Shown in pieces: positions 2,973 to 21,959 of a DNA stretch of 22,259 nucleotides. This DNA comes from Perkinsus marinus ATCC 50983 (Eukaryota > Perkinsozoa > Perkinsida > Perkinsidae), in NCBI RefSeq assembly GCF_000006405.1, contig NW_003213355.1, forward strand, positions 7,608-29,866. The letters run 5' to 3'. The translations under genes and the position numbers were made by a program. Within the stretch, counting starts at the first letter, position 1. The number at the start of each line of letters is the position of its first letter. The notes under the pieces were generated by a model. The model made no database searches and was not told where the DNA came from. It saw nothing but the letters and a program-made list of their open reading frames with translations.

Positions 2973-4727
2973 TCATGCACTGGCAAAGCCATCTGACGGG
3001 ATAGGAGATGGGATAATAATGCGTTTCCTATTCCTCCTTCGATGCTTCCTTGGTTTACCGTTTGGTGAGACATTGCCTGCCTTATATGCCACAACCGGGC
3101 CACCTGCGAATACTCTATACGCTAGGTACATTTGGGATAGACTGAGCAAAACCACCATGTACAGGAGCAACTTGATGATGGTGTCGGAGCCCAGTGATGT
3201 GAATAAGTCTGGCAATAGCCCATCATCACTGAATTCGGAATGTCCATGACCAGTACGACGTTTCATCTCCGAGATATCCTGCTCATGGTATTTAAGGTCG
3301 GCGAGGAGAGTGTTGACATTGGTGGCTAGATTGTGGTAATTAGCTTCCAACTCAGTCATCTCCTCGATAAACCTCAGCAGTGGAGGGCCCTCAGCCACAT
3401 TCTCAACAGTGTCATTGTGGTCTCGCCCACCTCCGTCATTGTACGATGAGTTCCCAACTTTCCACGGCTTGGAAGTGCTCCCACTCTGCTCCACATTAGA
3501 CGCTTTTGCACCAGGAAACCTAAAGTTATCATATTGTGAGGATATACTTGTGCCATTTGGGTTTAAAGCCGAGCAGTCAGTCAACGACTTCAGGCTTTGT
3601 TCAGTAGCAAGTTCCATCTTCTCCGCACTGATGAACGCTGCTGGATGCTTCTGAACCTCGTAACGTTTCTGCAGCTTACCAATACTCTGTATCATAGTAC
3701 TACCAAATATTTGAACACGGGTCAAAGTACACATCGCATAACCTTCCATAGTGTGACTTGTCAGTACTCTAATTTTAATGTATTTAACATAGCATTTAGC
3801 ACACCTGCTAGTATGTGAGAGATCAAACCATTGTTGAGTCTCTGTAGGATCAGTTTCGATCTCCCCAAGAACACGCCAGGTATCAGTTGGATACTTGCGG
3901 GACCCTAAGATTTGCAGATGACGGAAAGTCGATGAGAAATACTCCTTAGTGTCGAGGGCAATCTTCTCAACATATGTGTCATCATCCAAAGCGAATGTTA
4001 TCCACTTCTTACGGAGATCACACTGACACATCATATACTTACCATCATCACCATTTAATACATCACTAGGATGAGATAATCCATCAGCTGCACCGAGAAG
4101 CTTCGCTCCGCCATTTACCGAAGCATGATCGACTAACGTCCGAGTCTGAGAATTTGTGTAGGGCGCCCCTCGGATGAACAGCCTGTCTTTCCGTTGCATA
4201 TAATCACATAATCCACTCGAGCAGGGCACAGGCTCGGCACCGGCACTTGGGCTAATCGGGGACCGATTCAGAGGAGGTGGAGGACTCACTCTTGTAAATA
4301 CACGCGCCCTCTCCAACATCGAAGGAGTTATGACATCATCATTCGGGCCGACTGTACAAACCGATAATAGAGCCCAAGGCTTACATATGGTGTCCGTTAC
4401 CGGGGTCCGCCAATACCGTCGCCAGAGCTCCTCATCCTCCGGGTAAGACCAATCCTTTAGAGGTAGACCACGACATGGGCAGACCAGGGAAGAGATGGAC
4501 GAATTAAATGGGGCCTCTGTCGGGAGTGGAACATCGGCTGATACATTATAGGTCCCGCTGGATGCGGACGACGGGCGAACATCCACCAGATCTTCCGAGA
4601 CCTGAATTTCTGGCGGACCAACTCGCATATCCGCATTCGATGCGGCACTGCTGTTGCCATATGATACGTCGGCTTCTCCTCGGCAGAAGGGTAGGAAGAG
4701 CAAAACAATCCAAGTATGTTTGAGCAT
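2973..4727 (-). CDS. SUN-domain membrane protein, Slp1/OPT (mid-SUN) type, copy B
   Basis: This is a single uninterrupted exon of 584 residues. I start at the ATG at 4725-4727 because it opens directly on a hydrophobic signal peptide (MLKHTWIVLLFLPFCRG); the frame is open a little further upstream but has no ATG. Residues about 197-345 form a SUN domain of the Slp1/Osteopotentia class, with signatures such as VDHASVNGGAKLL, FRHLQILGSRKYP and VKYIKIRVLTSH. A Cys-rich region (LVCPCRG) precedes it. Next come a coiled coil (PPLLRFIEEMTELEANYHNL), one membrane helix at about 517-539 and a short, strongly basic cytosolic tail. In yeast, Slp1 acts with Emp65 in the ER lumen on folding and stability of membrane and luminal proteins, and plant mid-SUN proteins sit in the ER and nuclear envelope. 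Its central ~740 bp is almost identical to copy A; its ends are not. Stop is TGA. Confidence 0.85.
   Translation of the reverse strand: MLKHTWIVLLFLPFCRGEADVSYGNSSAASNADMRVGPPEIQVSEDLVDVRPSSASSGTYNVSADVPLPTEAPFNSSISSLVCPCRGLPLKDWSYPEDEELWRRYWRTPVTDTICKPWALLSVCTVGPNDDVITPSMLERARVFTRVSPPPPLNRSPISPSAGAEPVPCSSGLCDYMQRKDRLFIRGAPYTNSQTRTLVDHASVNGGAKLLGAADGLSHPSDVLNGDDGKYMMCQCDLRKKWITFALDDDTYVEKIALDTKEYFSSTFRHLQILGSRKYPTDTWRVLGEIETDPTETQQWFDLSHTSRCAKCYVKYIKIRVLTSHTMEGYAMCTLTRVQIFGSTMIQSIGKLQKRYEVQKHPAAFISAEKMELATEQSLKSLTDCSALNPNGTSISSQYDNFRFPGAKASNVEQSGSTSKPWKVGNSSYNDGGGRDHNDTVENVAEGPPLLRFIEEMTELEANYHNLATNVNTLLADLKYHEQDISEMKRRTGHGHSEFSDDGLLPDLFTSLGSDTIIKLLLYMVVLLSLSQMYLAYRVFAGGPVVAYKAGNVSPNGKPRKHRRRNRKRIIIPSPIPSDGFASA
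3738..4480 (-). repeat. Near-identical SUN core, copy B
   Basis: This stretch matches 8468-9210 at a constant offset of 4730 bp with no indels. I count about 11 mismatches, including one fully identical run of roughly 380 bp (about 3777-4158). Identity falls off abruptly at both edges, inside coding sequence. It covers the Cys-rich N-terminal part and the whole SUN domain. Confidence 0.9.
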
Positions 4728-4822: not shown

Positions 4823-7536
4823 TCATGAAACCGGTACACTCGAGTCCACATGTTCATGGGCGTCACTGCTGGTATTCCGAAGGAGGCATGGAATGAGGTG
4901 TTCAAGCTCAGTGTCCATCAAGGTCGTGAGCAAACCAGTCATCCACCTACTCATACGCTCAAGAGACACAATAACAGACCTCCGTTTGTCAGATGGTGTG
5001 GGAAGATCGTCCTCAGAGATCGTCTCACTAGTCTTCTGAAACAGTACCAGCGAGAATTATCGCATGACAACTGATATTTAAACCCTCACACGATAATCTT
5101 CCGAGTGAGTCATGCCGCTGTTAATCGTTCTCTTCACTATTGAGCGGCACAAAGACGTCGATGTGACTGCCTCGGATGTTGGTCTCGATCCAGGCGACCC
5201 ATCACGTTCTGGAAGGATATCCGATGACTGAACCACATAGACTTACCAGGTAGTCCGATTTCTAAGAAGACCCGTATAGCGACTACGGCCTCAGCGAAAT
5301 ACTCACGTGCCTGTGATAGGAGGGCACCACAGGCAATGAGTACACCGAGTCGGTGTAGCGACATCCACTAACAAAGTCAGCTACCTTCAGCTCCTCTACT
5401 GAGAGGGAAAGACTTCGATCAGGTACGGGTACGTCGCCCAGGAGCAATGTCAGGGCCTCCTCTGAGTGAATCCATATGTGTAACAAATCAGCACAGTCCT
5501 CAATATCCCTACCTTCGCTGTGGCAATCGCTTGTTATGCCCTCAGCATCTTGCAGGTAGGAGATGACCATATCAGAAACGCTAACAATAAGCGCCTCTGA
5601 TGCCGCCAATAAAGGTTCACTGACTATACTCTCAGGCCGTCTCTGCTGCCGAGCAAACGTGACTACAGGAAGATACGAGAATGCGAGGAGTTGTTGCGCA
5701 TGCTACTGAGTGGACCACCTCTGCCCGATTTGACGAGCCTCAGGTAACTAGCGGGAGATAAAGAGTTGTGCGAAATATCTACGTCACTAGCGCTCCGCTT
5801 CATTATAGGTCCTCCTCCATCTCTGAATATCGGAGCACCTACTACTTCCGTGCTGTCACTTTCGAGATTCCCTACACGCCATGCCTGATCAGTCAATGGA
5901 GGAAAGTTGGTCATGACACATAGACGATGAGCAGATTCGTACACATTCTTTGAGGAGTAATAATTGGCGTATGAGAAACAATTCCCCATACACGTGTTTC
6001 ATGGCCATGCATATCTCTTTCGGAGGAGCAGCATCGATGGGAGGCTTGAGCATCAAAGCTGCGGCATCAGTGACAGATCGAACACATGCTTCACATGCTC
6101 CTTTAGTCAGATAATGGCATACAGTCGCCTCTATAAGTGGCGGTATGGTAACTATAAACGCCGCAGTACGACATACAGTAGGGTACCTAAAGATAGCGTG
6201 GTCCTGACTGTCCTACGTAGGGGGTATAGCTCTTACCATCCATTTAGGCTCGTACGCATCAATGTTCCAATGGCTCGCTTTTCCTCGTTTGTTACCTACG
6301 AAAAGAGTCATAATAACTGACAAAATCCCAAGACATAATTACGGCAGGAGTATCGAAGAGGCGTGCAGGATATTCGAGATCCTCGGATGATGGAACGTAA
6401 TCCAAAATATTATCACTGATGTAGTGTTGGATGGCGGAGTCGAGCGTCGCCCGTGAGATATCGAGTAGCCTATTGTAGCAGCACTCTACTGGCTGAAATG
6501 GTAGCCTCATGCCCACTCAATTAGGGCTGCATGCACAGGTCTCATTAATGGCTCTAACAGCAGCCCCTCGGAGTGCAGATCAGGTCCACCGTGATATTCG
6601 CCGAGGAGGAGTATGTCATTGTTATCAGATACCCCACCCGAACCTTGTATCTATAGCAGCCTGGTCCATCAGAATAGACTTACGATCACTCACTGCTTTA
6701 AAGAGCATCACGCATAACCTGCTCAGTGAAAATATATTCTTACACCCGGCAACATGATCCCGTAAAGAGCTGAAACAGAGATACAACACCCTTGGGGGCT
6801 CGGCTGGGCATTCGAACGGTTATAGGCAGTAGATCATGGACGCTCACTTGATGATAACGTGGCCATAGCACTCTTGCATCATATCGAGGAAATGCTCGTC
6901 TTTGTCCTTGAAGAAAACACATGTCCTCGGCCCAGTGTCCACAGCTGCCATGAAAGAGTGTCAGTCAGCGTATGAATAGGGACATCCGCACTACACTCAC
7001 TGAACAGGCTCCCATAGGTAGTACACTCCCGATGAGCCAGTATGATGATACTGTCGCAAATCTGACGATTCTATGGGGTGTTGATGATGCAGTAACAGCA
7101 GTCACCCGTGATACAAGAAGGTCCAATTCGTCGTATTGATGGTGTATAAATGAAGGTAGAATACTATCAATCATAGACTGTATAAGATGGTATACAGCCC
7201 TCCGCCGCGTAAAACAGTAGTAACGTTTCACCTAGAGTGAACACCTACCACATGCGGTTCACAGCTCCGCCAGTTCACCAGAGAGATGGCCTGCTTTCGT
7301 TCCTGTGACCTGTCAGGTCCTTTTCCCTCATGAAGCCATAGTTCTGCGACCTACCACAACCATTAAGTCTATGAGTCCGTGATACTGTCCTGAGCTGCTT
7401 CGCAAACTTATCTTGATCATACCTCGCTTGAACTTATGAGGTTCCTTAGTTTTGCCTCTGCAATAACCACCTCTCGAAAGCCTTCGTAAGCCTCCAACTG
7501 GAAATCATTTCGAGACGAATGCTGCTGTTCAGCCAC
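4823..7536 (-). CDS. Diverged COG3 copy B lacking the N-terminal third; probably the 3' part of a SUN::COG3 fusion gene
   Basis: COG3 (Sec34) is a subunit of the conserved oligomeric Golgi tethering complex. Exons 7423-7536, 7279-7350, 7106-7231, 7001-7061, 6848-6944, 6684-6769, 6537-6643 and one starting at 6492 join in frame, as do 5373-5702, 5247-5310, 5090-5208 and 4823-5035 (TGA stop). The stretch from about 6290 to 5703 is unresolved; an open segment at 5750-5989 probably belongs to it. Landmarks align with copy A: RICDSIIILAHRECTTYG, DEHFLDMMQECYG, and LLDISRATLDSAIQHYI followed by YVPSSEDLEYPARLF. The intron inside the CYG...LR segment has the same place and phase (2) in both copies. 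Frames are intact, so this is not an obvious pseudogene. The N-terminal coiled coil of COG3 is missing, and there is no ATG of its own before the first exon. Divergence from copy A is high, so function in the COG complex is uncertain. Confidence 0.75.
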
Positions 7537-9466
7537 CTGGAGCAGTATCAGCACAGACGGAGCATGAACGAAGATAAACAGTCCTAGTCGGTACCCTCGA
7601 GGCCTCATCTTCGATGATGGCTTCGTTCAACTTGGATGACGAAGCTGTTTCCAATATCTCAATGAAGTCGCTGCTCAACGACTTCCATCGCCGCTTTCCT
7701 GGGTCGGATACTTCCTCCCTCATTCCAATGGGGGTCCAACGACTCGGACTGCTGTTGTGACGAGATGCACTCACGTTAATACGATACATCGAGTAGAGTG
7801 TTGATATCACAGCTACAGCTAGTATGACATCGCGGAGAAATGATCCGTTATCATTTATCCAACGGGAGGCCCATGAGACATATAGGGGGCTAGCGTGAGG
7901 GTGAGGGGCGGCAGTCTTGTAGGGGTGTGCTCCTACGTCCAGCACTCCCTGGGTATTATGCAGAGAGGCCTTATCCCTTTCACGTATCTTGCCGATCAAC
8001 TCCTCGACCTTAGCTGATAGTTGATGATAATTCGTTTCCAACGCCGACATCTCTTCCACAAACCTAAGTAGCGGCGGACCCTCGGAAATGGCAGCCTCTA
8101 TCCCTGCCTCGAGGGGCGGAGGTGATGGAGCATCTCGATTGTTAAAGCTTTGACTTTCGTCATCCTCCCCTTGCGAAGGCTTGCCCACTTCTACAGTAGG
8201 CGACTTCAACAGCTCATCATGCGAGTCCCGCTTCTCAGGGCATGTCTCCACAGCGGAAAGGGTCTGCTCTTCCGTAGGGTTTGCATCCACGGGCCGCGAG
8301 GTAGACATCGAAAGTGACTCGAGCATGGCGGATGTAGACTTAATGAGTGCCGAGGCATCGATCGACGCCGCTGCGTGTTTGGGTGCTTCGTATTTCCTTT
8401 GCAGCCTGTGGAGATTCTGAAGCAGTGTACCACCAAAGAGCTGTAAACGAGTGAGAGTGCATATCCCATAACCTTCCATAGTGTGACTTGTCAGTACTCT
8501 TATTTTGATGTATTTAACATAGCATTTAGCACACCTGCTAGTATGTGAGAGATCAAACCATTGTTGAGTCTCTGTAGGATCAGTTTCGATCTCCCCAAGA
8601 ACACGCCAGGTATCAGTTGGATACTTGCGGGACCCTAAGATTTGCAGATGACGGAAAGTCGATGAGAAATACTCCTTAGTGTCGAGGGCAATCTTCTCAA
8701 CATATGTGTCATCATCCAAAGCGAATGTTATCCACTTCTTACGGAGATCACACTGACACATCATATACTTACCATCATCACCATTTAATACATCACTAGG
8801 ATGAGATAATCCATCAGCTGCACCGAGAAGCTTCGCTCCGCCATTTACCGAAGCATGATCGACTAACGTCCGAGTCTGAGAATTTGTATAGGGTGTCCCT
8901 CGTATGAACAGCCTGTCTTTCCGTTGCATATAATCACATAATCCACTCGAGCAGGGCACAGTCTCAGCGCCGGCACTTGGGCTAATCGGGGACCGATTCA
9001 GAGGAGGTGGAGGACTCACTCTTGTAAATACCCGCGCCCTCTCCAACATCGAAGGAGTTATGACATCATCATTCGGGCCGACTGTACAAACCGATAACAG
9101 AGCCCAAGGCTTACATATGGTGTCCGTTACCGGGGTCCGCCAATACCGTCGCCAGAGCTCCTCATCCTCCGGGTAAGACCAATCCTTTAGAGGTAGACCA
9201 CGACATGGGCAGACCAGAGACGAGATGGACCAATTAAGTGGGGTCTCTGTAGGGATTGAAACCTCCGCTGATCCAGTATCACTCCCGTTTGATAGGGCAG
9301 GCGATGAAGACAATGCGGGATCAGCCAACCAAGGTACGGGCCAATCGGTTTTCATGTGAGGGCGATCAATCTGTGTAGTCTCATTGACAATCGACGACAA
9401 GTTATCCTGGTCGTATGACGAAGCTGATTGGCATAGTATGAGAGAGGTAACCAGTAAGGGGAACAT
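7529..9466 (-). CDS. SUN-domain membrane protein, Slp1/OPT type, copy A; probable N-terminal part of a SUN::COG3 fusion
   Basis: Unspliced, this frame runs 645 residues to a TGA at 7529-7531. The start ATG (9464-9466) opens a signal peptide (MFPLLVTSLILCQSAS). The Cys-rich segment starts near residue 85 and the SUN domain covers about 198-346. A coiled coil lies at about 463-500 (LLRFVEEMSALETNYHQLSA) and a membrane helix at about 543-562, followed by a cytosolic tail. Predicted topology is a luminal SUN domain with the C-terminus in the cytosol. The tail after residue 595 (SLSSDFIEILE) already resembles the COG3 stretch found in copy A before its helical region. After Arg624 a good GT donor (7594) splits the frame, and splicing joins it to COG3-B in phase 0. 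The final 22 residues of the unspliced frame are then intron translation. Residues about 85-335 are nearly identical to SUN copy B. Confidence 0.85.
   Translation of the reverse strand: MFPLLVTSLILCQSASSYDQDNLSSIVNETTQIDRPHMKTDWPVPWLADPALSSSPALSNGSDTGSAEVSIPTETPLNWSISSLVCPCRGLPLKDWSYPEDEELWRRYWRTPVTDTICKPWALLSVCTVGPNDDVITPSMLERARVFTRVSPPPPLNRSPISPSAGAETVPCSSGLCDYMQRKDRLFIRGTPYTNSQTRTLVDHASVNGGAKLLGAADGLSHPSDVLNGDDGKYMMCQCDLRKKWITFALDDDTYVEKIALDTKEYFSSTFRHLQILGSRKYPTDTWRVLGEIETDPTETQQWFDLSHTSRCAKCYVKYIKIRVLTSHTMEGYGICTLTRLQLFGGTLLQNLHRLQRKYEAPKHAAASIDASALIKSTSAMLESLSMSTSRPVDANPTEEQTLSAVETCPEKRDSHDELLKSPTVEVGKPSQGEDDESQSFNNRDAPSPPPLEAGIEAAISEGPPLLRFVEEMSALETNYHQLSAKVEELIGKIRERDKASLHNTQGVLDVGAHPYKTAAPHPHASPLYVSWASRWINDNGSFLRDVILAVAVISTLYSMYRINVSASRHNSSPSRWTPIGMREEVSDPGKRRWKSLSSDFIEILETASSSKLNEAIIEDEASRVPTRTVYLRSCSVCADTAPGG
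7537..7594 (-). other. 58-nt intron joining SUN copy A to COG3 copy B in frame
   Basis: The donor AGG|GTACCG and acceptor CTGCTCCAG|GTGGCT flank 58 nt, within the size range of the other introns here. Both sides are phase 0: the SUN-A frame ends EDEASR and the COG3-B frame begins VAEQQH. Retention gives a TGA at 7529-7531, just past the acceptor. The next exon ends at another GT donor (GAG|GTATG at 7422). Confidence 0.6.
8468..9210 (-). repeat. Near-identical SUN core, copy A
   Basis: This is the partner of 3738-4480 at an offset of 4730 bp. At its low-coordinate edge identity stops at the residues after MEGY (GICTLTRLQLF here, AMCTLTRVQIF in copy B). The other edge is just before LVCPCRG. 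Confidence 0.9.
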
Positions 9467-9474: not shown

Positions 9475-9698
9475 GAAATTGTGACTACACATGCTCCTAA
9501 AGTACCGAAGTCTCAAATCAGCGAGCCAGTACTTCTTCCACTCACTCAACAGGGCTAGTGTCAGTAGCATTCGGCAATGGAACAACAAACAATGGTAATG
9601 CTTTGCGACCTACGGCTCACTTCCTCAATACAACTGATTCAACTTCCTGACAAAGAAGATGATGAATAGCCTATGCCAATACAAAGAAGGACCCTCTT

Positions 9699-12600
9699 CT
9701 ACCTCAGGTGACTGTTCCATAGTCTTGTCGAACAGTCTAGAGAGCTCACACGATAGATCGGTCGACGACACCGATGTGTCATGGGATAAACCCTAAGCGA
9801 AGACCAACGATGCTCGTTTCCCAAGGAAAATGAAACTTGATCCAGCCTTTCTATACGAAAGAGAGTGAAAACCAATATTAGGCGTACATTCCTTTCTAGT
9901 TCCCGACACACGTCTACGACTCGAACATGTATTGGCTGGAAGAGGATGGCCGTCGTACTATCACGAGGCTCTTTGGACGTCGACGAGTCAGATCCTGAGT
10001 CAGACGATGATCACCATCGTGAACAAAGGGACGCCTCACCATTAGCGGCTGAAGGTTCGGACAATGTGAGATAGGCTCTCATCATAGAGACTACAACTGG
10101 TATGTCAGCCTCTACCTGCTAGATGAGTTGGAGAGCAACTTAGGTGTATGTGGACTTCCCTACCTTATCCATAGTGGACTTCCATGCTGCTTCGATATCA
10201 CCAGCAAGGGTAGGTCTCTCTGAGAAACGTAAAGGCATATACACTCAGCAGAAGCCCTAGATAAATCATTACCATCATCACAAGGAGGAGTCTTCGCTAC
10301 ATAGACCGTCGTCAAGGGGATGGTGAGACGTGCAGTGATGTGAGCAATTAGGCGATCGCATGCAGACTTGAGCTGAGCCTCGATATCCCGCTTCACATCA
10401 GATTGTCTGGATTGGATCACCGGTGTGAAAGTCGACAATATTCTAGAGGGTACATTGAATGCGGAACCTGAGTGCCTGTTCAGCACGAATCGTAAAAAAT
10501 GGAATACCACTACCTGTCGAATGTTGTTGTTGCTGTACACCCCACCCTTGATGGGTAACTGATGGTACATGGCCAGGTAATCGTAGGGATAGGACATCCA
10601 TTAAACTATGCTTAACGTTAGAGAAGTCCAGATATTGTGATGAGCTCACCAGATCAACATCGAATGAGGCAATCTAAGGCAATAACATCAGCAGTACTTA
10701 TGAGTACCAAGATGAATTCAATCGGACCCACCTGTTCTCGAAGGATCAACAAATGGCGTATGGTGAAAAGCGCCTCGTTGAGAGTAGTCCAACCATCAAT
10801 ATTATTGTCTTTGGATGTATCGTGAGAGTCTCTCTCTTCAGAGTAACTCCTCGCAATATCAACTGCTGCTATGTCGATAGTCTCCAAGCATGCCGATACA
10901 GCCTCATAAGCAAGGCTTTGGAAAGTCGTTGTCTCCAACACAGGAAGTATCTCAGCCAATATCCATAACGTCTTTCCCAGTGTTGGGTACCTGCCCAGCA
11001 TTAAATCAATGCTGCCGACATCACTCTCCTAATCCATTACCAGCCTCTGGTGGATACTCTCATTAATCGGCCATAAGCATCAATCTCGGGATGGACCTGA
11101 TAGACATGATGGGTAGAATTCATGACAAGGGCCTACCGTTAGTGCATCATGTTCGAAAAGCCGCAGAGGATACTCAAGGTCCTCTTTAGATGGGACAAAG
11201 CCACGGATATCATCTCTTATGTAGGTCTGTGTCCTGTATATCAGCCTTTCCTGCACATCCTTCAGCAACCTAACTTTGTTGTAGGCGGTATGGCAGGAGT
11301 ATGAGGAACATCTCACCTGTACACCACTGACAGGACAGGAACAAGCAGAGAGTTCTCTTCTGAACGTCCATCGGCATCAGGGGGCTGCTTCGCTCGGTTA
11401 ATGTCGTAGGAGTCGAATCCTTCTGGAGCCAGGATCTGATAGGTAGAATGGAGCATCGAGCTTGAGCGTTGCAAACGTACCTCTCGCGAGATGAGCTCTG
11501 CCAAACTCTTCAGAGTCTCGACCTTCTGACAGGAGACAATTTTGGATCGAAGGAACCTATATCCGCTCATGGGGGAGTCCTTGAAGACAGACGACTCACG
11601 CATAGAGAGGTTTGCCGTAACAATTGCTGAGGAAGCCTTCAATAGGTTCGTCTGCTCCTGGGGCTAAGCCAGTGGACTGGGAAGCACTCGGAGACCCAGT
11701 GGCTATACTGCTCGCATCGCCACCTGCATAGTGATGATAAGGATAGGCTGTTTTAATAGGAATAGTATGACCGAAGTATTGAGTGTAAGTCCTACACTCC
11801 GCTTTGGCCAAGGACAGGACCTGTCGGCAGACCTAGAAGAGTGAGAGTAATGATGAGCGTGATGGCAAGAGTCGAGTCACATGTCTCGTGTATGGTAATA
11901 TCTGACTCTCCTCTCCTTCAAGTATATTCTCATCGTTACCCTCACCGGCTGCCATGTCATCCAACATACTATTTATCCGCTCAGACACATGAGCCTGCCT
12001 TACTGTACAGTAGTATTGATGTACCTATCCATCGCCTATGATGCAGAGGGTTACAAGGATTTACCGCATAGATAGTAGCGACATAATCATCATTCCCACA
12101 ACATACACTATTGAGGACATCTATGATAGGACGGACCTGAAGCATCCAGAAATTCACTACTCAGATGTAAGTCGATTGTAGACTATCACCTCAGCCGCTC
12201 GGGCATCCTGATAACCCTGATAGAGGCTCTTACACACTTCTTCATGCGATCCAACTGTCTGATATGGTATAGGATAACAACCCTAGCACCCAACCTAGGA
12301 TACTCACTACCTTCAATTCTCGCCCAGCTTCATCCAGGAGCCTCATAAGGTGGGATCTCACAGCAAAACATGCTCGAGATCGTAGATGGGATATTTGTGA
12401 TAGACAAGCAGGTGCCTGAGGTGGCGATAATTTCCAGGAAATCCCCCCTCCCATAATCTCAAGGGCTAGAATGCATCGGGTAGCTCACCATCTGATAATC
12501 GTAATGTTCCTCCATGAACGCCGTTATAGTATCCAAACGGTGAAAAAGATCCTGTAGGCCCTCGGCAGTATCAACACTGGGAGGGAATAACTCGGATACA

Positions 12601-13648
12601 TCGTCAGTGTTCCCCGAGCTTAGGAGGCTCATCTGTCTGAGAAGGCAGCAGCCTCCAACGTGAACAGATATCCCACTCTGCATACCATACCTCGTTATCT
12701 TGTTGACGTCGTCAAAGATGGCCAGCTTGGATGATATGCTCTCCGCCGTTACTTCCAGGACATTGTGATCCTGAAAGAATCAATGAGTTCTCATTCCCGG
12801 ATCATGCTGACCATCCACATTATGCGAGTTCCACATCCTATAACTACACACACGGCCAACTAGCCTGTGACTATAGTATCCAAACATGAAGCTTAGATGT
12901 GCTTGCGCCACCGCTGTTTTTACATGTGCATGAGTGCATTTGATATACAGGACCCTCGCATACAATCCATCCCATACTACCCTCATCATCTTTTCGCAAC
13001 GCTTATGCAACTGTGTGGTCTTCTCCACCACTTGTTCACGTTCGGCGTCAACTTCGTCCAGGAGAGCTAAACTATCCCTCAATTTGTCATTAATGCTGGT
13101 ATATGCATCTCTGACATCAATAGCATTCTGCCATCGTTCACGACCTAGCAAGGGGATACTATCACCATCGCATAGTGCTACCTGCTAAAAGGAGCAGTGC
13201 TACCTGCAGCATCCTCTTTACTCGCCTGTTGCTCTTCTAATTGTGCGTAAGTCTTATAAAACTTCTCATAGACATCACGTGGCGTAACACAGTCGTTATT
13301 ACCATCAGCCTGAAAGCATAGCAGGTAACGACGTTATAGGGCAAACGATTGTGTATCGTCTATCAGCGTGACCACCTTGGTATCGACGAGCCGCTGCCAG
13401 GACTCATCAGTCATCCAATAATAACACCGACTAATATCCTCAGCATGATGGTCAGCCCAGCTGGCCGCTATATCGTCCAAGACACGCTGCTGTTCAGAGG
13501 ATAGTCTCTAAGCCAATAACCCAAACAGAGTACTCCAGGGATATGTAAACCTCACTCTCACCGAGAAATCCTCCTTCGATCGGTGCCCTTGGTCAAATGG
13601 TCGTTCTCTTGATGGTGATGCCGCCTGGTCGTCGTCAAGAGTAGTCAT
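9699..13648 (-). CDS. COG3: COG3 (Sec34), conserved oligomeric Golgi complex subunit 3, full-length copy A
   Basis: Golgi vesicle-tethering subunit of COG lobe A, acting in retrograde intra-Golgi traffic. Twenty exons join in frame: 13562-13648, 13376-13507, 13204-13309, 12981-13144, 12691-12770, 12489-12636, 12311-12415, 12190-12258, 12065-12136, 11881-11994, 11600-11832, 11317-11556, 11137-11269, 11041-11096, 10732-10990, 10514-10673, 10273-10467, 10164-10219, 10040-10115 and one from 9970 down. Start is the ATG at 13646-13648. Family hallmarks in order: N-terminal coiled coil (EKTTQLHKRCEKMM), LLKDVQERLIYRTQTYI, FVPSKEDLEYPLRLF, a WYPT motif created across the 10991-11040 intron, RHLLILREQIASF across the 10674-10731 intron, IEAQLKSACDRLIAH, and AILFQPIHVRVVD near the C-terminus. 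The exact C-terminus after about 9860 is unresolved; the frame stops at 9699. Predicted length is roughly 900 residues, slightly above the usual ~800. Confidence 0.9.
12771..12980 (-). other. Unusually long (210 nt) intron of COG3-A
   Basis: Donor AGG|GTAGTATGG and acceptor CTTTCAG|GATCAC link two exons in phase 0. All other confirmed introns of this gene are 40-73 nt. The first part of the intron stays open in the exon frame, but its translation has no COG3 similarity. Confidence 0.6.
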
Positions 13649-20020: not shown

Positions 20021-21113
20021 GACCTGTCCACCCCCTACCCATGGAACTCTACCTCAACCCATTCGTGAAGCGAGGCTCGCAGCGTACCAGAAGTGGTACT
20101 AGAGTATCTCAGTAGTCTCGCACCCTGTCGTCATACCAAGTATTACCATGCAGAAACCCCATCTCTCGAACAAGGATTCCGGTGCAATAACGAGTCGGGA
20201 TTGATATGTGAATAATCATATCTAGCAGCAATATGTCCCTACCCTTCCTCACTCTATCCACAACAATATTCGACCGGGATGGAACTATACGCGATAATTG
20301 AACCCCATATACATCTCAGTTTCACAGTTGAGTGATAAAATCCAATCATCAACCGAGATAGGGAACCGCCATGCCCTACATCCAGTAGGGCACGTTATGG
20401 TCCGATCAGATTTGAGCTCCTTTCTTGCAGCCCATCTTACCATGCCCTACTACACACAACCACGTTACGACTTCATTCGGCTTTCCCTAATCATGCAAAG
20501 CCCCCTATACAACTAGACTTCCTACACATGCTCCACCCAGCACATGTTCCGACTAAGCACATCGCTTCCGTATGATGAACATTGATCGATGGTCCTCCTT
20601 ACTTCAAAGCTATGTAGGATAACAATCTGGCAGCGAAAAGCTATCACAAAACGTGAACCCTACCCTTACAATACGTGACATACACGCACCAGTAAATTTA
20701 TACGTTTGAATTTGATGCATCATTGCTGATAACCATAAGAATTCCACGAATCACTGAATGCACTCCAATAGCCATCCTTCTCGGCATAACGTCAAATGGA
20801 TCGAGACGTAGCTAGGCGATTCATTACTCCCTTCCACAATGTACCCACAAACTACAAATTGTACGATTCTCCCAAACCTCTTCTCGCGGGGTCTTTCACC
20901 CGTCGTGTCCGCTGAGTTCGGAGTCGCGCTCGAACGATTCATGATTGCGAAAGAAGCCAACACAAACCTCTACTCCTACAACAATGCTCTAAGTTCAGCC
21001 AAACAACCAACCAACCCACTCCCCTTGAAACACGAACACGGTGATGATGATCACTGCAAGCTACCGTGCATGTAGTTTCCACGGTATGGAATTATATCAC
21101 AATAGCGGAGGGA
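20021..21113. other. No gene recognised
   Basis: About 1.1 kb with no open frame I can support on either strand. Opposed short frames at 20839-21075 (plus) and 20751-20963 (minus) overlap each other and have no motifs. A short hairpin with stem GCCCTA/TAGGGC lies at 20373-20391. No tRNA- or rRNA-like sequence was seen. Confidence 0.4.
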
Positions 21114-21959
21114 CTAGAAAGTCTCATCCTCGAAGAACTCTCTATTAAACCTGAACAACAGCTGGAATAACTTAGGATATATGATAAGTACCTCTCTTGG
21201 AGAGGCGTGCTGCTTCTACTGGATCGGAATGAAGACCTCCTGGACTCATCATAAAGGCCCAAATCTTGGATGGTTGACTTCAGTTTATTATCCACGACGA
21301 TATCATCATAATTATTATCATAATTATTAACGACAACCTCCTTACGGCAGAGTGGGCACTTGTAGCCATTACCGTGGGCATGTGTAACCATATCGATAAC
21401 ATGCTTACGGCATACATGATGGCCACAACCGCATACATCAACGGGTCGAACTAGCACCTAAACTCATCAAATCAAAGAGTGCACATCACGCTACTACCTA
21501 CATCACAACACACTGGACAACTAAAGTCGTCCTTGGTTGACTCCTGTGTGAGGTGAGGCACTGGTGACCCTCTAGATGATACCGTGCTCACAGGGGAAGC
21601 ATCATCCTGTCATAGACTGCACTACCAAGAACAGAGGTATCCTATCCTACCTCGACATGAGCAACAACCCGCTTGATTGGCTCCTCATCAACGAGCCTAG
21701 TGTATAAGTCAACAGCTGCAGGGGACGATACATGATCATCGTTCTCATCGTCACTAGCAGCCTCGACCTCAGCAGCATGCTTGATCAACTTTCGAGTAGC
21801 ATCTCTCTCACGATCGATTGTATTCGGGGTAATAACCGCAGAGCGTACTCTTTTGCCGCAAACGACTGGCGATAAGTCATGCCCTACCATAAGAATCTCG
21901 GCAGACGCTTGAGAAGCTACAACCGGTGAGCGGGTTGCAGACGCAGATGCCGCACTCAT
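21114..21959 (-). CDS. RING-finger protein, probable E3 ubiquitin ligase
   Basis: Four exons, 21651-21959, 21502-21606, 21192-21457 and 21114-21150, give 238 residues. Introns are 44, 44 and 41 nt. The start ATG (21957-21959) follows an acceptor-like TTTAG by 2 nt. Residues about 1-130 are low-complexity and acidic. The RING begins CPVC at the end of exon 2 and is completed across the intron by DVCGCGHHVCRKH and YKCPLCRKEV, giving all eight zinc ligands in a C3HC4-like arrangement with His in place of the usual sixth Cys. The C-terminus is rich in Ser and Arg and ends in an acidic stretch (FNREFFEDETF). RING proteins bring an E2-ubiquitin to a substrate; the substrate cannot be read from this sequence. 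No membrane helix is seen. Confidence 0.75.

Follow-up and report, generated by a model that had tools for sequence, protein, structure and literature searches.

A probable SUN-COG3 fusion gene in Perkinsus marinus and two related species, with a predicted membrane-anchored product

Can a SUN-domain protein and a subunit of a Golgi tether be encoded by a single gene? The question is raised by a stretch of 22,259 nucleotides (nt) from Perkinsus marinus ATCC 50983, a member of a genus of shellfish parasites. This stretch (contig NW_003213355.1 of RefSeq assembly GCF_000006405.1, positions 7,608 to 29,866 of the forward strand) is called the window here, and all coordinates refer to it. Four coding units lie on its minus strand and would be transcribed in the order COG3-A, SUN-A, COG3-B, and SUN-B; a preliminary description of the sequence had proposed that SUN-A and COG3-B are spliced into one product. 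Mid-SUN (cluster II) proteins, among them yeast Slp1, animal SUCO/osteopotentia, and plant SUN3-5, form a family of the endoplasmic reticulum (ER) and nuclear envelope. COG3 (Sec34) is a subunit of lobe A of the conserved oligomeric Golgi (COG) complex. We conclude that SUN-A::COG3-B is likely to be a real fusion gene, inherited from an ancestor of several Perkinsus species and produced by tandem duplication of a COG3-SUN pair, and that its predicted product is anchored in a membrane.

RESULTS

Structure of the SUN-A::COG3-B gene

The spliced frame of SUN-A::COG3-B runs on the minus strand from an ATG at 9466 to a TGA ending at 4823 and comprises 16 exons that encode 1273 amino acids (aa) (Table 1). 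All 15 introns are GT-AG and are 38 to 78 nt long. The junction between the two parts is as originally proposed: exon 1 ends at 7595, a 58-nt GT-AG intron (7594-7537) follows that is in phase 0 on both sides, and COG3-B resumes at 7536. The acceptor of this intron is strong, with just 1.7% of the 3040 AG sites on both strands of the window scoring as high. At least eight further exons had been expected to join in frame; COG3-B proved to have 15 exons, and thus 14 beyond its first.

Both halves can be assigned to their families. The Sad1_UNC domain (PF07738) of SUN-A scores 60.4 bits against a curated cutoff of 22, which places it in the SUN family, and the COG3_C domain (PF20671) of COG3-B scores 31.9 bits, in one exon piece, against a cutoff of 26.8. 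The best domain of the first COG3-B model reached 84.8 bits with a profile of 42 COG3 homologs plus COG3-A. That first fusion model, in which one COG3-B intron was misplaced and which was later corrected using the P. olseni protein, underlies the 84.8-bit score and also the search and alignments of the proteins P0056 and P0057 described below.

When the whole genome (54.5 Mb in 347 contigs) was searched with the PF07738 and PF20671 profiles, two SUN and two COG3 loci were found, all inside the window; the genome-wide domain searches were run exon by exon, and these counts are lower bounds. COG3-B had been described as lacking the N-terminal coiled coil of COG3. Consistent with this, none of the three exon pieces scanned contained COG3_N, the COG3 profile match begins at profile position 301, and the genome-wide search with the COG3_N profile (PF04136) gave a single weak trace (E = 0.23), in COG3-A, and none in the fusion. 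COG3-B had also been said to have no ATG of its own. Downstream of the acceptor, 81 codons pass before an in-frame ATG is reached, and out-of-frame ATGs precede it. Upstream, the description does not strictly hold: an ATG at 7608, which lies within the SUN-A exon in a different frame, is in frame with the first COG3-B exon if the intron is left unspliced.

Conservation in other Perkinsus species

A protein search with the fusion, in which 8000 candidates were scored, gave four matches, two of which are from Perkinsus and carry SUN plus COG3_C. One of these, P0056, is a partial P. olseni protein of 1713 aa that aligns collinearly with the fusion; the two are 58% identical across residues 35-1161 of the first model. 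The other, P0057, is a P. chesapeaki protein of 2149 aa that comprises the 3' part of SUN-A, COG3-B, and SUN-B. COG3-A is present in both proteins as well, starting at exon 7 in P0056 and whole in P0057. They have different entry points into SUN-A and different endings past COG3-B; the transition between the SUN-A tail and COG3-B is common to both of them and to the window model.

A comparison of the P. olseni protein with the window DNA, which does not depend on our exon model, gave a match at 9364-7598 that ends one codon from the donor, and the match resumes in COG3-B at 7500. COG3-B plus tail is 52% identical to P. olseni (301/574) and 39% identical to P. chesapeaki (185/475), versus 23% (113/499) to COG3-A of the window. 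Because two further Perkinsus species carry the same junction in their annotated proteins, the fusion gene is well supported.

The NCBI name of both database proteins is "Golgi transport complex subunit 3." They are merged models of two genes (P0056) and three genes (P0057), if the fusion is counted as one.

Origin of the fusion

In a tree that included 11 of the 42 COG3 homologs, the COG3-B sequences of the three species formed one group (support 100/100) and the COG3-A sequences another (100/97). Since COG3-A and COG3-B each group by the three species, the duplication is older than the species split. Eleven of the 15 COG3-B introns fall in the alignable part; five of these share both column and phase with a COG3-A intron, and eight lie within three columns of one. 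No random placement of introns among 100,000 reached five exact or eight near matches, in a test that is partly circular, because some exons were chosen with COG3-A and the relatives as guides, with the circularity limited by stop codons in the wrong frames. The other four introns are in a region where COG3-A and COG3-B align poorly.

The ends of the SUN copies also differ. SUN-B has a short basic tail past its membrane helix, and stand-alone SUN relatives, judged by eye, likewise have a basic stretch there. In SUN-A, the SUN-B type of tail is replaced by a tail that is conserved in all three species and is similar to COG3 exon 6; when it was matched without gaps to a COG3 profile, 18 of 2000 column shuffles scored as well as its best match. 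The corresponding control values were 83/500 for reversed tails and 27/300 for the best of 11 control tails (P0008). The SUN-A tail is possibly derived from COG3 exon 6.

A single event could give rise to this arrangement. A neighboring COG3-SUN pair would have been duplicated in tandem in a staggered manner, with breakpoints at the 3' end of SUN and in or beside COG3 exon 6 (or intron 6). Such a duplication would leave an intact COG3-A, followed by a SUN-A fused to COG3 sequence that begins at exon 6 or 7 and then by an intact SUN-B, which is the order observed, and the same event would account for the loss of SUN-A's own tail and of the first exons of COG3-B, including the COG3_N coiled coil. 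The message is probably spliced through the old intron 6 of COG3, so that no wholly new splice site would have been required.

The two SUN copies have a later history as well. A block of 878 bp that is 95% identical is shared by SUN-A (8416-9293, minus strand) and SUN-B (3686-4563), and its flanks are far more diverged. In the block, the proteins of the two window copies are 93% identical (272/293), compared with 87% (256/293) for the SUN-A proteins of the window and P. olseni; after the block, the identity of the window copies falls to 25%, versus 51% for the SUN-A orthologs of the window and P. olseni. Because the block is closer between the window copies than to P. olseni SUN-A and the reverse is true after it, the SUN domain was homogenized after the split from P. 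olseni, and the remainder was not. The 878-bp tract is, judged from these identities, a gene conversion later than that split.

Predicted topology

SUN-A has the layout of mid-SUN (Slp1/SUCO) proteins: a central SUN domain, then a coiled coil, then a C-terminal helix. A structure model of the SUN-A frame placed helices at residues 465-503 (the coiled coil) and 532-566 and, with medium confidence only, strands at 212-347. The model is weak overall (mean predicted local distance difference test score [pLDDT], 47.6; tail, <50). A sequence search of solved structures with SUN-A gave no match at E ≤ 0.01. The strongest hydropathy window lies past the coiled coil in all three species' sequences, and in the window sequence it peaks at aa 547-565. 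The predicted luminal part has the higher density of sequons, with 6 in 529 residues versus 2 in 708 (in P. olseni, 4 in 508 versus 2 in 615).

A single helix after the SUN domain would put the COG3 part in the cytosol. In the predicted topology, the SUN domain and the coiled coil are therefore luminal, one helix spans the membrane, and a COG3-derived rod is cytosolic. The product would be a membrane protein of the ER or nuclear envelope that has a signal peptide and crosses the membrane once, and its rod would be COG3 minus the N-terminal assembly region.

Alternative explanations

Several observations weigh against this account. One is the weak donor of the fusion intron, whose score is reached by 27% of 2632 GT sites and ranks fourth from the bottom among the 35 modelled donors. 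A weak donor makes a SUN-only form by intron retention possible. The locus might then have two products, the spliced fusion and a SUN-only protein with 21 additional residues in its tail, an arrangement that is compatible with the fusion gene. The pairing of this donor with a strong acceptor speaks for it, as does the fact that the retained intron leaves the SUN frame open to a stop at 7531-7529, just past the acceptor. We consider dual products plausible, though less likely than not.

The edge at the donor is also not sharp in P. chesapeaki, whose protein matches the window DNA past the donor to 7544 in the intron and overlaps the next match (7518-7393) by six residues. This continuation and the weak donor would both be expected of two separate, overlapping genes. 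SUN-A would then stop at the TGA at 7531-7529, and COG3-B would have its own message, to which a spliced leader (SL) is trans-spliced, for example at the acceptor at 7537 or at one that precedes the ATG at 7608. Two genes would likewise fit the frame of that ATG, which is the frame of COG3-B, and the SUN frame's own stop. The genome contains 34 exact copies, and 43 with one mismatch, of the SL-like sequence CCGTAGCCATCTTGGCTCAAG, which we take to be a Perkinsus spliced leader, and two of the eight exact copies inspected (L011 and L012) continue AAGGTA, as in SL genes. Trans-splicing of this kind is employed by Perkinsozoa, according to excerpts of PMC9399869. However, an SL message from 7536 would meet out-of-frame ATGs before any in-frame one, and the sequence preceding the ATG at 7608 is the conserved SUN-A tail, read in another frame. 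SUN-A and COG3-B overlap, leaving no intergenic room, unlike the other two borders, where the COG3-A stop is 150 nt before the SUN-A ATG and the SUN-B ATG is 95 nt past the COG3-B stop. Moreover, the P. olseni similarity ends just ahead of the donor. Separate genes are, in our view, improbable.

Other points touch the evidence for particular parts of the fusion. Because P0056 and P0057 enter SUN-A and leave COG3-B differently, they are over-merged automatic gene models; their annotation as one gene consequently proves little, and the conservation of sequence alone counts. Exons 15 and 16 have as their evidence open frames and splice signals. The likeness of the SUN-A tail to exon 6 is modest in single species (31/1000 in the window; 11/1000 in P. 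olseni, on another diagonal; 338/1000 in P. chesapeaki), and the exon-6-like segment ends 13 residues before the fusion junction, versus 2 residues before COG3-A intron 6. The hydropathy of the window helix, 1.61, is barely above that of a stretch internal to COG3-B (1.52, aa 1068), although the gap between the helix and the other stretch is wider in the relatives (1.98 versus 1.57 and 2.51 versus 1.44).

Finally, COG3-B evolves fast, with a stem branch of 2.28 and 23% identity to COG3-A, and its tether function may for this reason be lost or changed. Such a rate, the very long stem branch, and the missing N-terminal part could also mark a decaying pseudogene, left by the duplication and read as coding by gene finders. 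Yet its 15 exons are open in the window despite 77% divergence from COG3-A, the identities to P. olseni and P. chesapeaki remain at 52% and 39% over 574 and 475 residues, and intron positions are conserved, which makes a pseudogene very improbable. Least credible of all is an assembly artifact, for although the nearly identical 878-bp block in both SUN copies can confuse assemblers, the copies have diverged outside it, and the same gene order recurs in the proteins of P. olseni (COG3-A, SUN-A, COG3-B) and P. chesapeaki (COG3-A, part of SUN-A, COG3-B, SUN-B).

The locus and its surroundings

The exons of the fusion gene and the two neighboring paralogs are listed in Table 1.

TABLE 1 Features of the SUN-COG3 locus in the window
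Feature	Position	Strand	Remarks
Fusion exon 1	7595..9466	-	SUN-A: hydrophobic N-terminal stretch (taken as signal peptide), central SUN domain, coiled coil, predicted membrane helix (~aa 547-565), tail
Fusion intron	7537..7594	-	58 nt, GT-AG, phase 0; three alignment columns from COG3-A intron 6 (12310-12259, phase 0)
Fusion exon 2	7423..7536	-	COG3-B
Fusion exon 3	7279..7350	-	COG3-B
Fusion exon 4	7106..7231	-	COG3-B; start exactly that of COG3-A exon 9
Fusion exon 5	7001..7061	-	COG3-B; start exactly that of COG3-A exon 10
Fusion exon 6	6848..6944	-	COG3-B
Fusion exon 7	6694..6769	-	COG3-B; start exactly that of COG3-A exon 11
Fusion exon 8	6517..6650	-	COG3-B
Fusion exon 9	6343..6469	-	COG3-B; start exactly that of COG3-A exon 12
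Fusion exon 10	6237..6295	-	COG3-B
Fusion exon 11	5943..6186	-	COG3-B; COG3_C core; start exactly that of COG3-A exon 14
Fusion exon 12	5719..5884	-	COG3-B; 3' end set by P. olseni protein
Fusion exon 13	5385..5662	-	COG3-B; 5' end set by P. olseni protein
Fusion exon 14	5247..5310	-	COG3-B
Fusion exon 15	5090..5208	-	COG3-B; no clear match in annotated proteins of the two relatives
Fusion exon 16	4823..5035	-	Last COG3-B exon, with stop; unmatched in annotated proteins of the two relatives
COG3-A	9617..13648	-	Neighboring paralog; 21 modelled exons, 928 aa; COG3_N traces below cutoff, COG3_C above
SUN-B	2973..4727	-	Stand-alone paralog, no introns; short basic tail, own stop

In COG3-A, the frame is kept across intron 3 (13225-13182) only with a GC-AG splice pair; the remaining 34 modelled introns are GT-AG. 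The COG3-A intron at 12980-12771, at 210 nt, is unusually long in the model and may conceal an exon. Elsewhere in the window, an open frame on the minus strand (21095-21454) has a weak RING-type zinc finger of about 20 bits, below the cutoff. Among the exact SL-like copies inspected (L009-L016), those other than L011 and L012 enter differing sequence and may be SL-tagged retrocopies or repeats.

DISCUSSION

If SUN-A::COG3-B is one gene, as we think likely, what would its product do? COG3_N is part of the region by which COG subunits are thought to assemble, and because the fusion has no COG3_N, it is unlikely to be an ordinary subunit of COG lobe A. The SUN part would keep a mid-SUN (Slp1/SUCO-like) role, acting on folding or exported proteins in the lumen. 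Fixed to the membrane, the CATCHR-type rod would be an arm on which vesicles, SNAREs, or coats dock at the ER/cis-Golgi face. This arm would be separate from the COG complex, which would use COG3-A. Of the mechanisms we considered, a CATCHR rod serving as an ER-anchored docking arm seems the most likely, and we advance it tentatively; the remaining weight lies with a COG3-B rod that may have taken on a changed, non-tether role. More speculative, and on balance unlikely, is a new ER-membrane tether in which the SUN domain would sense or bind folding cargo in the lumen while the COG3-derived CATCHR rod worked in the cytosol, so that cargo state and docking would be coupled without a separate receptor. 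Profile searches of the genome for TAPT1/Emp65 (PF05346), the type of protein with which the Slp1/SUCO subgroup is partnered, and for COG4, COG2, and RINT1 gave no match, but the control genomes were equally silent, so these results are uninformative.

To our knowledge, the known COG-type vesicle tethers are peripheral proteins. A COG-type tether whose own chain anchors it in the ER membrane would, if real, be unusual. The locus would also be a clean case of a staggered tandem duplication that made a lasting chimeric gene and left both parents whole. Automatic annotation conceals such genes: the two public entries are named for one parent and have neighbors merged in. The preliminary description knew of no protein with this architecture. 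We found no paper on a SUN-COG3 fusion in the open-licence PubMed Central (PMC) literature, but the domain pair is present in the public entries of P. olseni and P. chesapeaki. The fusion is a new chimera of known domains.

How does this chimera compare with known systems? With COG3 (Sec34) it shares profile homology over fusion residues ~675-993 and the COG3_C domain, as well as intron positions in common with COG3-A; the further C-terminal part aligns less clearly. It differs from COG3 in having no COG3_N, in its predicted membrane anchor, and in its fast evolution, and the genome retains a complete COG3-A. The Dsl1 complex is a CATCHR tether at the ER and is held there through SNAREs. The fusion would act much as this helical-rod ER tether does, but the two belong to separate families.

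The closest comparison for the other half is with the mid-SUN proteins, whose central SUN domain, like that of the fusion, precedes a coiled coil and a C-terminal membrane helix. Excerpts of PMC9110389 describe the yeast Slp1-Emp65 complex as shielding folding soluble proteins through the SUN domain and a plant mid-SUN complex as guarding receptor export. In Arabidopsis, mid-SUN proteins have two C-terminal helices and a lumenal C terminus, according to excerpts of PMC10180911, whereas the fusion has one predicted helix and a C terminus predicted to be cytosolic. The SUN relatives that we found end, by eye, within ~100 residues past the membrane; the fusion continues for ~700 residues with COG3-derived sequence.
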